Shown here: positions 40,104 to 44,595 of the stretch, in pieces
Numbering within the stretch: position 1 is the first letter of the stretch
Layout of the letters: each line of letters starts with the position of its first letter
Origin: Hymenobacter amundsenii
GTDB taxonomy: Bacteria; Bacteroidota; Bacteroidia; Cytophagales; Hymenobacteraceae
Direction: 5' to 3'
NCBI RefSeq assembly: GCF_002204745.1
Contig: NZ_NIRR01000020.1
Location: forward strand, 1-64,000
Length of the DNA stretch: 64,000 nt
Notes under the pieces: generated by a model
Told to the model about the DNA's origin: nothing
Databases searched by the model: none
Seen by the model: only the letters and a program-made list of their open reading frames with translations
Made by a program: the position numbers and the translations under genes

Positions 40104-40724
40104 ATGCATCGATTGTTACTTATCGTCCCGGCTTTGCTATCCGGCGTGGCCGCGCTGGCTCAAACTCCGGCAGCGCCGAAGTCCCCCGTTCCGCTTACCC
40201 TATTTGCGGGCCTGGGGCGGGGCATTTACACCAACGACGGCTGGCCCGGCACCTTGGCCACGGTCGGGCTCCAGCGGCCCTTCGCGGCGAACTCCCTGTT
40301 CAGCATCCAGCCCCAGATCGGCTTTTTTCAGGCCGATAAAGCGGCCCGCGACCCCGACAAGAACCCGGGCGAGCAGTACGCCGCATTTATGGTAGATGGA
40401 GCGCTGGCCGTGCGCACATCCCGTCATCCGGAGCGATTGGCGTTACGCGTGGCGCTGGGACCGGGCCTCGTGGCGGGGCGCGTCACGAATCTAACGCGCT
40501 ATCCGGGCCAGTACCTTAACCGCGACGGCTCGGTCACGGTCCTGACCGCCCCCGAGTACCACACCGACCACCTGCTCAAGCCAACTGCTTACTGGGGAAT
40601 AGGTATGGACATCGTGCTGGAAAACCACTTTTACCTGGCCGGGGGCATTGAGAGCCGCACTTACTCCTATTTCCCCGGCGACCTGCTCAGCGCCCACCTG
40701 CGCCTGGGCTACCAGCTGCGGTAG
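40104..40724 (+). CDS. exported hypothetical protein, barrel-like
   Basis: 206 residues with a signal peptide ending VAALAQ. The mature part alternates beta strands and turns, with the last strand SAHLRLGYQLR ending in a charged but aromatic-flanked segment, as in small outer-membrane or periplasmic beta proteins. No family is recognised. It precedes the next gene on the same strand by about 40 bases. Confidence 0.62.
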   Translation: MHRLLLIVPALLSGVAALAQTPAAPKSPVPLTLFAGLGRGIYTNDGWPGTLATVGLQRPFAANSLFSIQPQIGFFQADKAARDPDKNPGEQYAAFMVDGALAVRTSRHPERLALRVALGPGLVAGRVTNLTRYPGQYLNRDGSVTVLTAPEYHTDHLLKPTAYWGIGMDIVLENHFYLAGGIESRTYSYFPGDLLSAHLRLGYQLR

Positions 40725-40767: not shown

Positions 40768-41586
40768 ATGAAGTGCGTAACGAAGGTTGACTGCTTCCGT
40801 TTGATTCCTCCCGCTATCCGTTTCCACCCAACTGCTCGTCGGTGTGGGAGCGGGTGCGTTATAGCGGGTCTGCTGGCGCTGGCGCTGCTGCCCCGCACCG
40901 GGCGGGCTCAAGCCGCAGAGCCCGCCCGCCCCGCTACCGGCCACAGCAGCCAGAACGCGCTGCTCATCAGCGGCTACGGTCTGGGCGGCCGCGTGCCCGA
41001 TTACTACCGTTACCTGGGGACCGGCGTGGGCCTGGCCCGCCGCAACCGCTGGGGCTACGCCGATGCCGACTACGACTCCGATTTCACGCTGGGCCTGCGC
41101 CTGGGCATCGGCCGGCAGTTCGACGGCCGCGTTTCCGGCCCTCAAACGCTGTGGGGCCTGAATCCTTACGTAGCCGTGGACGGCCGCTTTTTTGGGGCGG
41201 CGCTGGGCGTGTGGGTAGGCCAGCTGGGCGACTTCCGGGCCGAGGGCCAGCGGCCGGGCCGCCTGATTCCGCAGTTGCGGGCCCGTGCCGGCCAGCTCAC
41301 CGGCTGGTACGGCCGGCTCAGCTACGCCGATGAATTAGGGGGGCTCGGCAATCCGCTGCTGCATTTGGGGGGCGGCTACGGTGGCCTGCTGAACGGGCGG
41401 CTGCGCCTGGGCACCGGCGTGGCCGTGCCCACCCTGGCCCGCCCGGGCCAGGAAATAGGCCTGTACGCAGAGGCCGGAATCAGGACCAGCTTCGGAGAAT
41501 TCGGAGCCTACGGGCAGCCACCCCTTAGGGCCGGTGCTCCTGGCCAGCTGGGCTTACAGCTGTGCTTGAGCGGCCTTGCGGAATGA
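40768..41586 (+). CDS. exported homologue of the barrel half of the downstream fusion
   Basis: About 272 residues. An N-terminal hydrophobic stretch (VIAGLLALALLPRTGRA) could be a signal or anchor. The core contains GLNPYVAVDGRFFGAALGVWVGQLGDFR, which aligns well with the C-terminal part of the fusion protein at 41951 (INPYMCFDRKWVGLGYGLLLGNLGYHR). Both probably are membrane beta structures. The start is uncertain: GTG 40756 and ATG 40768 are both in frame and the first codons look unusual for a leader. Function unknown. Confidence 0.6.
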   Translation: MKCVTKVDCFRLIPPAIRFHPTARRCGSGCVIAGLLALALLPRTGRAQAAEPARPATGHSSQNALLISGYGLGGRVPDYYRYLGTGVGLARRNRWGYADADYDSDFTLGLRLGIGRQFDGRVSGPQTLWGLNPYVAVDGRFFGAALGVWVGQLGDFRAEGQRPGRLIPQLRARAGQLTGWYGRLSYADELGGLGNPLLHLGGGYGGLLNGRLRLGTGVAVPTLARPGQEIGLYAEAGIRTSFGEFGAYGQPPLRAGAPGQLGLQLCLSGLAE

Positions 41587-41833: not shown

Positions 41834-41877
41834 TGGGCCGCCGCCGAACACCTACACCAGGGCCGGGCGGCGGCCCA
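41834..41877 (+). terminator. GC-rich hairpin after 40768 gene
   Basis: Twelve-base perfect arms TGGGCCGCCGCC / GGCGGCGGCCCA, loop of 20 bases, followed by TCTGTTTCTGCTT. Either terminator for the upstream gene or leader structure of the fusion gene. Confidence 0.55.
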
Positions 41878-41950: not shown

Positions 41951-43816
41951 ATGCTTCTATCCGCTACTGCTCCTGCCTGGACACTGGCCGTGCCGGCCGA
42001 CACGCCCTTCGACTTTTATACGCTGTTCTACGTGCTGGCCTTCGCCCTCAACCTGGCGCTGCTGGTGTGGGAAGGCTGGCGGCGCGGCTATGCCCTGCGG
42101 CCCTGGCTGGTAATGCTGGCCTGCACCACGCTGGCCTTTATTCTGGGCACCAAGCTACTAGCCCTCACCGGCCCCGAGTGGCGCGGGTTGCTGCACACCG
42201 GCCACTGGCCCGATTCGGAGGCCCGCACAGTGCTGGGCGGGGCCCTGGCGGGCACCCTCACGCTACTGGCCCTGCGCCGGCCCTTCGGTTTCAGCTGGCA
42301 CGTATTCGATGCCTTCACGCTACCCATGTGCGCGGCTTTGGTGGTGCAGTGCGTGGGCTGCATCCTCACGGGCTGCTGCTTCGGCGAAACAACGGCGGGC
42401 GGCTGGGGCTTCACCTACCCGCCCGATACGCTGCCCTACCTGGTGCAGGCCGTGCAGGGGCAACTACCACGCGGGGCCGCCCATTCGCTGCCGGTGCATC
42501 CTACCCAACTTTACTCGTTGCTGCTGTGCGCGGCCGTGGGTGGGGTGCTGCTGGTTACCCGGCGGCGCCCCTGGCCCGGCGGCAGCCAGCGCCTGCTCCA
42601 CCTGGGCCTGCTGCTCACGGGCCGCTTCCTGATTGAGTTCTGGCGCAATCCGGCCGGCGAACAGGCGGGCAGCGCCGTGCACGTTCATGCTGGTCTGGCC
42701 CTCAAGCAGGTTCAATGGATACTGCTGCTGCTGGGGCCGGCCGTGCTGGCCCTCTGGGCCTGGCGGGTATGGCGCCGCCGCACGGCCCGCCCCGAAATCG
42801 GACCGGTGCATCAGCCCGTGGGCAACCTGCTGGCGGTGGTGGCGCTGCTGGCCGCCACGGCCTGGCTGGGGCCGGTGGCGCTGGTGCTGCCCGAAGTGTT
42901 GGTGGTGAAGACATTGCTGCTGGCGGTGCTGGTACTGGAAGGCGGGGCCCTGCTGCTGGGTGCGGCCGAGGCTGCTGCCCGGCCCGCCCGCGTGGCCCTG
43001 CCCCTGGGCCTCGCCTGCACCGTGTTCGTGCTCACCAGCCAGACGCCGGCCGCCGACACCACCAGCCACCAGGGCCGGGAGCAGTATTCCACCATCAGCG
43101 GGAGCCTGAGTGCCGGCTCGTTTGAGCGCCTCCAGAACACCGGCGGCGGGGGCGGCTGCGGGGGCGCTTCGCAGCTGCTGGCCTACCGTCACCGCTACGC
43201 TACGGGCACCCTCGATGCCTCGTTTACCAGGCTCCCCGGCCAGGATACGGATGGCGACGTGCACAAGGCCGCAGCCACCTACGGCGTTCGGCTCCACGCC
43301 GGTTCCGACCGTCAGAACCTACTGTTGCCGGACAGCATTTCCTTTGGGGCCACTTCCCCACGCACTACCGCCATCCTGGCCATCAACCCCTATATGTGCT
43401 TCGACCGAAAGTGGGTGGGCCTGGGCTATGGCCTCCTGCTGGGCAACCTGGGCTACCATCGGGTCAATTTCGGGGATGAGCAGAGCAACCTGGATTTACA
43501 AGGTGCCCTGCGCCTGGGACGCCGCGAGACGGTTTACGCGCTGGCTGAATACAACTTCCTGGGCTACGGCGCGGCCAATCCGCAGCACCGCCTAGGTATC
43601 GGTACGGGTTTCGGCGGGACGCGGTGGCACCTGCTGGGCGGGGCCGCCACCGCCAAGAATTACGAAATGCGGCCGAATCAGAGCCGGTGGTCGGGTTTTG
43701 TGGAGGCGCAGGGGCAGTTCTCAGAACGCTGGCAGGCCAGCACGTTTTTTCTGCTGGGCAACCGCTACCAACAGCAGGCCGGCCTCCGGCTGGGCTACCG
43801 GCTACCGGGTAAATAA
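41951..43816 (+). CDS. Lgt-like membrane protein fused to barrel-like domain
   Basis: 621 residues in two parts. The first 300 or so form a polytopic membrane domain resembling prolipoprotein diacylglyceryl transferase: GCILTGCCFGETTAGGWGF, PVHPTQLYSLL and, near the end, GRFLIEFWRN. Such Lgt-like paralogues exist in many bacteria, but with GCxLTGCCFGxxT rather than classical GRxGNFxNGE, so the substrate may differ. After a few more helices comes a signal-like stretch (VALPLGLACTVFVLTSQTPAADTT) and then about 250 residues of beta-rich, barrel-like sequence including a GGGGGCGG loop. The C-terminal half resembles the protein just upstream. ATG 41951 is taken; TTG 41906 is possible. Confidence 0.75.
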   Translation: MLLSATAPAWTLAVPADTPFDFYTLFYVLAFALNLALLVWEGWRRGYALRPWLVMLACTTLAFILGTKLLALTGPEWRGLLHTGHWPDSEARTVLGGALAGTLTLLALRRPFGFSWHVFDAFTLPMCAALVVQCVGCILTGCCFGETTAGGWGFTYPPDTLPYLVQAVQGQLPRGAAHSLPVHPTQLYSLLLCAAVGGVLLVTRRRPWPGGSQRLLHLGLLLTGRFLIEFWRNPAGEQAGSAVHVHAGLALKQVQWILLLLGPAVLALWAWRVWRRRTARPEIGPVHQPVGNLLAVVALLAATAWLGPVALVLPEVLVVKTLLLAVLVLEGGALLLGAAEAAARPARVALPLGLACTVFVLTSQTPAADTTSHQGREQYSTISGSLSAGSFERLQNTGGGGGCGGASQLLAYRHRYATGTLDASFTRLPGQDTDGDVHKAAATYGVRLHAGSDRQNLLLPDSISFGATSPRTTAILAINPYMCFDRKWVGLGYGLLLGNLGYHRVNFGDEQSNLDLQGALRLGRRETVYALAEYNFLGYGAANPQHRLGIGTGFGGTRWHLLGGAATAKNYEMRPNQSRWSGFVEAQGQFSERWQASTFFLLGNRYQQQAGLRLGYRLPGK

Positions 43817-43915: not shown

Positions 43916-44595
43916 ATGAAATATCTCTATCTCCTATTGCTTCCAGTCTCTTTTCTCTTCAGCTCTTGCGAAAAGGAAACAGTTATTTGTACTGGCAACT
44001 GTTATGACCTGAACGTAAATGGCAAGGTCACGAACAGGCTGACTAACGCCAACGTCCCGGATATTCTGCTTACGCTGGAACGAGTGAAATTTACCGGATT
44101 ATTCTCGAAATCAGGAATAGTTCATGAATTCAAATCAGGTAAAGATGGCACGTTCAATCTAAGGCCTAAGGTCGATACAACTATTTTTAGTGGTGGTTAT
44201 TTTCTGGCCTTGAAAGTGAACGAGAATAAGGATTACCTAACTATTCCTGATCGGGGCTTCTACCGGCTGTATGATCTTTCGTCCACTTCATTTCAAAACC
44301 TAGGCATCCCAGTATATCCCAAGGCTACTTTAAAAATCAAGCTTAACAGAAAGGACGATGATGACTTTCAATACTTTCAAGTGATGTATTTTTTGAAAAA
44401 AACGCTCCATTTTTTCCTCTGAACGTCTCCTCACCTGATGACATCAGGAACTCCGAGTTAAACGTACCTACCTCGTCGGATATATACACCACCATATGGA
44501 TAAAAAAAACCGCTCTTAATGGCATATCAACTGTCAAAATAGATTCTATAAGATGCACCAAAAAAGGCCCTAATACATACACAATAGATTATTAG
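43916..44595 (+). pseudogene. lipoprotein with carboxypeptidase-like domain, frameshifted at A7
   Basis: Lipoprotein with signal peptide ending LFSSC, then an extracellular domain of carboxypeptidase-regulatory/CNA-B type (GKVTNRLTNANVPDILLTLE). In the first frame it stops at 44422 with KKTLHFFL. If one base is added at the seven-A run near 44397 it continues NAPFFPLNVSSPDD... and ends PNTYTIDY at 44595, with matching composition. This is either a one-base sequence error, a decayed gene or a phase-variable homopolymer. AT-rich throughout. The hydrophilic end in the restored frame supports a real longer original. Confidence 0.7.

Follow-up and report, generated by a model that had tools for sequence, protein, structure and literature searches.

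An Lgt-fold membrane domain fused to a predicted outer-membrane β-barrel with an invariant loop cysteine in Hymenobacter

In the window, that is, the whole 64,000-nucleotide stretch of Hymenobacter amundsenii DNA analyzed here (contig NZ_NIRR01000020.1), one gene joins a membrane domain with the predicted fold of the lipoprotein diacylglyceryl transferase Lgt to an exported part predicted to form an outer-membrane β-barrel. The strongest result of the analysis is a cysteine in a loop of this barrel, C403, which is present in every distinct fused protein and absent from most barrels that occur without the Lgt-like half. Among the explanations considered, the most likely, and one we hold tentatively, is that the Lgt-like half modifies this cysteine in cis and that the barrel is then cut free. 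It is followed, in this order, by a dead membrane anchor, a redox or metal site, and a barrel that stays tethered to the inner membrane. The positions of all features are collected in Table 1.

Table 1. Features of the fused gene and of the region upstream of it (positions are those of the window)
Feature	Residues	Positions	Strand	Basis or remark
Unfused barrel relative		40768-41586	+	272 aa, signal-peptide-like start, no loop Cys
Second intergenic hairpin		41587-41624		Fold z -2.23
Stable hairpin between barrel gene and fused gene		41834-41877	+	Fold z -2.46
Terminator-like site		41860-41876		Within the hairpin region 41834-41877
Fused gene		41951-43816	+	Lgt-like domain of the inner membrane, then three extra helices and an exported barrel of 12 strands (predicted); translation and relatives
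Lgt-fold domain	19-278	42005-42784	+	Pfam LGT; structural and profile match to 5azb
Signature stretch GCILTGCCFG	136-145	42356-42385	+	Replaces GNFINGELWG of E. coli; 5azb alignment
VHPTQLYS	182-189	42494-42517	+	H183 = H196 of E. coli Lgt; H in 53/72
RFLIEFWR	225-232	42623-42646	+	R225 = R239 and R232 = R246 of E. coli Lgt
Three additional membrane helices	289-362	42815-43036	+	Model and loop charges; last helix oriented like a signal peptide
Invariant Gln364	364	43040-43042	+	Directly after the last helix; 72/72, also in G637 and G822
Predicted 12-stranded outer-membrane β-barrel	378-619	43082-43807	+	Model, structural matches
Loop between strands 1 and 2, GGGGGCGG		43142-43165	+	Holds Cys403 (43157-43159); Cys in 72/72

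The reading frame of the fused gene starts with ATG and runs through 621 codons with no internal stop. Its translation contains GCILTGCCFGET, VHPTQLYS, RFLIEFWR and GGGGGCGG, and the window genome holds one copy of the gene. An earlier note, made from the letters of this DNA, had claimed the fusion of an Lgt-like domain with an exported barrel-like one. The continuous frame, a Pfam LGT match and twelve predicted strands bear this out, and structure prediction returned an Lgt fold for the first half and a 12-stranded barrel for the second. A start-codon or frame artefact is ruled out, since relatives across genomes align over both halves in one alignment.

When sought in other genomes, the fusion was readily recovered. 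Relatives are present in seven named Hymenobacter records (L004-L010; 46-79% identity in the best segment), with close ones in H. rigui and H. perfusus, for instance, and 85 of the 120 genomes of the genus match the fused protein. Both halves are spanned by a single alignment in 73 of these genomes, two of which (G024 and G038) have an inner stop; six match over the barrel only, four carry fragments or split genes and two give Lgt-type matches only. In the family, 101 of 200 genomes match the fused protein, and in 12 of the 200, belonging to three genera other than Hymenobacter, the match covers both halves; one of the 12, G142, contains an inner stop. In a sample of 241 genomes of the order, the Lgt-domain profile reached E < 1e-90 only within the family of Hymenobacter, the best matches outside it being at 2e-18 and weaker. 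A sample of 395 genomes of the phylum revealed one further fusion (G637), and the order of that genome (114 genomes) a second one (G822), interrupted by a scaffold gap; the two carriers belong to one genus of another family. The fusion is real and old.

In total, 72 distinct full-length fused proteins, forming 14 clusters at 50% identity, were aligned. They were drawn from 113 ORFs matching the fused protein and were kept if distinct, below an E value of 1e-30 and longer than 540 aa, so that duplicates, unfused barrels, canonical Lgts and split copies were excluded; two of the excluded split copies (L071, L073) nonetheless retain the loop cysteine. In a tree of Lgt domains (71 rows, thinned from 105) all fusions group in a single clade (SH-aLRT 90), separate from canonical and GCC-type Lgts, with long branches that leave the nearest kin unsure.

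Split or frame-shifted fused genes were seen in single genomes (L071 5895-7798 in G082; L073 6261-11218 in G013; L042 5928-7732 in G118), and tandem pairs of fused genes in five genomes (L008, L009, L051, L073, L074). The split or stopped copies (G082, G013, G118, G024, G038, G142) may mean that the gene is dispensable in some lineages, or may be assembly errors.

The fold of the first half was recognized in three ways. Pfam LGT (PF01790) matches residues 19-262 with an E value of 1.9e-16 and 60.6 bits (cut-off 24.9). Residues 13-278 of the model superpose on E. coli Lgt (5azb) with Z 13.9 and an rmsd of 4.3 over 223 aligned residues. Finally, among solved sequences a profile of 29 fused Lgt domains has a single distinct match with an E value of 0.01 or less, E. 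coli Lgt (5azb/5azc, E 1.6e-12). The helical half received little testing by VIA-align, and the lack of a match from the structure tools rules nothing out. The NCBIfam equivalogs for prolipoprotein diacylglyceryl transferase gave scores below their cut-offs (45.8 bits against 334 and 14.4 against 118.9); NF000778 was matched by 28 of the 29 relatives at E up to 0.01, the best E value being 2.4e-21.

Residues were counted over the 72 fused proteins, anchored on the 5azb profile alignment. According to the accessible text of PMC13251419, Y26, H103, R143, N146, G154 and R239 are absolutely required in E. coli Lgt, and the tested substitutions of R143 and H103 were inactive in the available part of the work of Mao and colleagues (PMC4728403). 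Over about 265 residues the fused protein shares with Lgt the fold and the equivalents of Y26 (Y in 67/72), the GG of the HGGL motif, G145, G154 (G in 72/72), R239 (R225, 69/72) and R246 (R232, 72/72). It differs from Lgt in its three extra helices and barrel, in lacking a lipobox substrate, and at four positions. At H103 no protein has histidine (L in 64, F in 4, V in 3 and I in 1; L95 in the window protein). The R143 position holds C in 49, G in 14, R in 8 and S in 1 (C134 in the window protein), and the eight proteins keeping arginine all come from genera other than Hymenobacter. Neither N146 nor E151 is kept, both being cysteine in all 72. The changes at H103, R143 and N146 count against modification in cis. 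The description "lipid transferase-like" in the earlier note is thus supported for the Lgt fold and not supported for lipid transfer, with H103 and N146 replaced in 72/72 and R143 in 64/72.

Altered sites have been described in other Lgts. In the available portion of PMC13251419, some Lgts carry Y, W or F at H103 of the HGGL motif, and natural Lgts exist in which N146 and E151 are replaced by C or C/D, so that a changed signature motif is by itself already known; the fused family shares these cysteine replacements with the distant Lgts of that source. A further subgroup there lacks R143 and R239 and is suggested to have a different substrate or mechanism; the fused family, by contrast, keeps R239 in 69/72. 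The E151A variant is functional in PMC13251419 and inactive in Mao and colleagues (PMC4728403), in each case by the part of the source at hand.

Conservation of the domain extends well beyond these positions: W52, G66, W77, G96, G97, D120, Q133, C137, C142, C143, R232, Q255 and, past the domain, E315 are invariant in the fused family. This indicates that the Lgt domain is under constraint, which favors modification in cis. The window genome has a stronger Lgt match elsewhere (247.1 against 62.5 bits), and a much stronger second Lgt match was found in all five fusion-bearing genomes searched with PF01790 (the window genome, G034, G075, G076 and G130). It is thus unlikely that the fused gene is the main Lgt of the cell; with a separate, stronger Lgt in the genome the fused copy would be free to specialize, again in favor of a role in cis.

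In the AlphaFold2 model the extra helices that follow the Lgt domain lie at residues 289-306, 313-340 and 346-362. The loops preceding them contain on average 2.8, 0.3 and 1.6 K+R and 1.1, 1.1 and 0.1 D+E, respectively. By these charges the end of the chain is expected outside the cytoplasm, with the last helix oriented as in a signal peptide; this agrees with export of the barrel and favors modification in cis. In 60 of the 72 proteins Gln364 is preceded by S or A, and in the other 12 by N, with F at -3; in G637 and G822 the preceding residue is F. Because of this N with F at -3 and of the F in the relatives from the other family, a signal-peptidase cut before Gln364 seems doubtful, a point against the proposal. 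By the accessible text of PMC5837995, signal peptidase I products of Bacteroidetes mostly start with Gln, the Q-rule placing this Gln at +1 behind a small residue. A barrel of such a kind would need to be released.

The model consists of helices up to residue 362 and then of strands, from 378-396 to 607-619. Its mean pLDDT is 66.2, from a ten-row alignment; within the barrel most ten-residue blocks reach 73-89, several loops 45-54, and the stretch 398-405, which includes C403, stays under 50. Confidence this low, in particular in the C403 loop, makes the arrangement of the two halves uncertain, which counts against the reading in cis. Structural comparison with Foldseek and VIA-align gave NalP (Z 14.8, rmsd 3.4, 188 aligned residues), BrkA (14.5), KdgM (14.1) and LpxR (12.9). 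The predicted fold is shared with NalP, KdgM and LpxR, each an outer-membrane barrel of 12 strands. Unlike them, the fused barrel has only weak Pfam matches and no catalytic set was seen in it, the most conserved residues of the exported part being glycines, Gln364 and C403. Assignment to a known family was dropped, as the Pfam matches were weak and scattered (best E 0.12 among 29 fused and 0.0026 among 14 unfused barrels). PagL was absent from the Pfam matches of the 29 fused barrels, and the upstream gene scored 17.4 bits against the PagL lipid A deacylase, below the cut-off of 23.

Turns 2-3, 4-5, 6-7, 8-9 and 10-11 of the modeled barrel are 14, 3, 4, 6 and 4 residues long; loops 1-2, 3-4, 5-6, 7-8, 9-10 and 11-12 comprise 12, 13, 13, 8, 11 and 4. 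Barrels usually have their short turns on the periplasmic side. The C403 loop would therefore face the cell exterior, by a rule of thumb that turn 2-3 and loop 11-12 break.

The earlier note had pointed to the loop cysteine as worth testing, and its presence in 72/72 distinct fused proteins gives this suggestion substance. C403 lies 30-49 residues past Gln364 and is the single cysteine after it in 62 of the 72; nine proteins have two and one has three. The preceding residue is G in 64 of 73 rows (the window protein being counted twice) and otherwise T, S or D. Both G637 and G822 have a cysteine in the same loop columns. The strict conservation and these distant counterparts favor modification in cis. 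A lipobox at C403 is absent, even a loose pattern being found in 1/72 (L050, FGGC, in a glycine-rich stretch), and this counts against it.

We compared these proteins with 17 unfused barrels, whose mature start was set by a simple pattern. Fourteen of them have no mature cysteine, two, including the one in the window, have cysteine near the C-terminus only, and one (L048) has a loop cysteine. This distribution favors modification in cis; L048 itself, with two cysteines in the loop and one late, speaks against it. The set of 17 excludes a broken copy (L073/L029) as well as a fragment (L067 5747-6232), and near copies (L069/L070, L091/L092) are among the unfused barrels. In a barrel tree built with the loop columns removed (89 rows, 15 unfused) the unfused state needs four changes, three of them forced by well-supported branches, and the cysteine three; the cysteine is absent from every unfused row except L048. 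The sign test for association of cysteine and fusion gave a median p of 0.5 with few independent changes, a further point against, and with too few independent pairs the test was unable to reach significance. The pattern of cysteine with fusion is suggestive, and statistically not established.

The gene upstream of the fusion had been described as a homologue of the second domain and as its partner. Pairwise BLASTP between the upstream product and the fused barrel is weak (E 0.017); profiles of 29 fused and 14 unfused barrels align with an hhalign probability of 99.95 and E 1.8e-37, which confirms the homology and rules out that the domains are unrelated by profile search. A fixed partnership did not hold up, since only 9 of 68 family genomes have an unfused barrel adjoining the fusion, and in the window the two genes are separated by hairpins; a conserved operon partner is ruled out by the same count. 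The 68 are the family genomes whose fused locus was fetched, with a flank of varying length, at least 1.5 kb unless the contig ends sooner. Two further genomes, in which the adjacent piece is the cut end of a second fusion, were not counted in the nine. Three other genomes (L022, L026, L027) have a close form of the upstream gene next to the fusion, and more distant relatives occur in three sister-genus genomes, where the barrel is the sole match to the fused protein. Other unfused barrels adjoin fusions in G014, G015, G056 and G103 and, broken, in G013. The upstream barrel gene is an occasional companion of the fusion. Unfused barrels begin with what resembles a signal peptide. The upstream protein gave a poor model (pLDDT 56.6, 11 strands), to which no weight was attached. 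Shuffled sequences average 4.5 terminator-like sites (sd 2.5), so that the six in the region are not above chance.

Among seven neighboring ORFs of the window Pfam revealed no lipoprotein-pathway gene, which counts against modification in cis. In 54 wide loci with the full fusion, relatives of the DUF2867 dehydrogenase encoded in the window were found in 33 and relatives of its topoisomerase in 38; these neighbors look like frozen synteny and give no clue to function. A plasmid search gave no match. Two further genes lie close by. The one at 40104-40724 encodes an exported protein of 206 aa that begins with a signal-like stretch; neither Pfam nor NCBIfam matched it at E up to 1, and among 99 loci it has relatives only in L024/L097 and L026. 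Just downstream of the fusion, 43916-44419 encodes 168 aa, in which SCEKE follows a hydrophobic start and for which Pfam gave nothing at E up to 0.001; by eye its product is likely a lipoprotein, and the frame might shift past its stop, the sequence continuing in another frame.

If the cysteine is modified in cis, the fused gene would encode a self-contained precursor. Its Lgt-fold domain would sit in the inner membrane with the active cleft facing the periplasm; in the accessible text of PMC4728403 the natural substrate of Lgt is a cysteine thiol accessed from the periplasmic side. The three extra helices would return the chain outward, so that the barrel reaches the periplasm, and the Lgt-like domain would act on C403 of its own barrel. 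The change would most likely be a thiol modification akin to the diacylglyceryl transfer of Lgt; several residues of E. coli Lgt being replaced, the chemistry need not be that transfer. The barrel would then be cleaved near Gln364 and inserted into the outer membrane, its modified loop pointing outward. Orientation, action in cis and release are steps that we infer. That the whole makes a self-modifying outer-membrane protein, whose Lgt-fold enzyme lipidates or otherwise modifies the loop cysteine of the joined barrel before release, is a possible and rather doubtful proposal.

The loss of three essential Lgt residues can also be read as a sign that the Lgt-like half no longer catalyzes anything and acts only as a membrane anchor or carrier, C403 having an independent use such as dimerization or cargo attachment. 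The existence of the barrel alone in six genomes of the genus and three of a sister genus, with a topoisomerase gene at the locus in 9/9, agrees with this. However, the domain is strongly conserved, with the equivalents of R239 and R246 in 69/72 and 72/72, and the cysteine is missing from most unfused barrels, so that cysteine and Lgt half tend to co-occur. We consider a dead anchor unlikely, and still the best placed of the alternatives.

Less probable again is a thiol-redox or metal site in the Lgt-like half, which would exchange disulfides with C403 or bind metal with no lipid transfer. In the signature stretch C137, C142 and C143 are invariant (C137 and C142 in 72/72) and C134 is present in 49/72, giving a CxxC plus CC near the periplasmic face, while H103 and the lipid-binding R143 are lost; in the accessible text of PMC13251419 a cysteine pair of Leptospira Lgt, at N146 and W153, is proposed to be near enough for a disulfide. 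Against this, the same source, as far as available, has N146 replaced by C and E151 by C/D in distant Lgts. Moreover, unfused Lgt-like proteins that keep R143 also have GCxxxGCC, so the cysteine cluster is not specific to the fusion, and C403 is alone in 62/72 exported parts, so no intra-barrel disulfide can form there.

These unfused GCC-type Lgts bear on the modification in cis as well. No Gly-Cys partner was seen beside them in the order (8/16 loci with the motif, at most three ORFs per side), which counts against it. At L137 6677-7462 an unfused GCC-type Lgt stands, by eye, right after an lspA-like gene, an arrangement that hints that GCC-type Lgts act in lipoprotein maturation. The GCC-type domain was also observed in other fusions, open frames of about 650-690 residues in four other genomes (L184 3088-5061, L185 3134-5215, L204 5605-7551, L205 4125-6083); in L184 and L185 it is preceded by what, by eye, we presume to be membrane domains resembling a methyltransferase and a PAP2-like domain. 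A distinct Lgt-like group has GDG(C/D)(Y/W)G or similar at the end of the signature motif and forms one tree clade (99) of 21 rows (L178, L182, L194, L196, L198, L200, L203, L209, L210, L212-L214, L221-L223, L225-L228, L230, L234).

In the least probable alternative the barrel would stay in the periplasm, attached to the inner membrane, and the protein would be a bridge or sensor that handles lipids and not a precursor. In its favor, Gln364 is invariant and yet a clean signal-peptidase site is not in all rows. Against it, the best structural matches of the barrel half are outer-membrane barrels, and the roughly 13 residues from Gln364 to the first strand are too few to span the periplasm.

With bacterial lipoproteins the fused protein shares a conserved exported cysteine beside an Lgt-fold enzyme; it differs from them in that this cysteine lies in a barrel loop, well past Gln364, and has no lipobox. 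An account of an Lgt-barrel fusion was not found in the literature searched, in which coverage of subscription journals is thin, and a text search of PMC13251419 did not return the word "fusion". Such a fusion is not mentioned in the available parts of PMC12636315, on peptides entering the normal lipoprotein pathway, PMC12419801, where a different enzyme is proposed for a Ser lipobox, and PMC12611786, on barrel assembly.

Lgt is held to act on the lipobox cysteine of separate precursors, and a conserved Lgt fold together with a strict barrel cysteine would widen the role of the fold. The fusion may also be relevant to the altered-site relatives of Lgt for which, in the accessible text of PMC13251419, another substrate or mechanism is suggested. 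If the proposal is true, enzyme and substrate would lie in a single chain, and an outer-membrane barrel would carry a modified surface loop without a lipobox. Hymenobacter and its relatives would then offer a case of thiol modification in the loop of an outer-membrane barrel, with enzyme and substrate naturally paired in cis for study.
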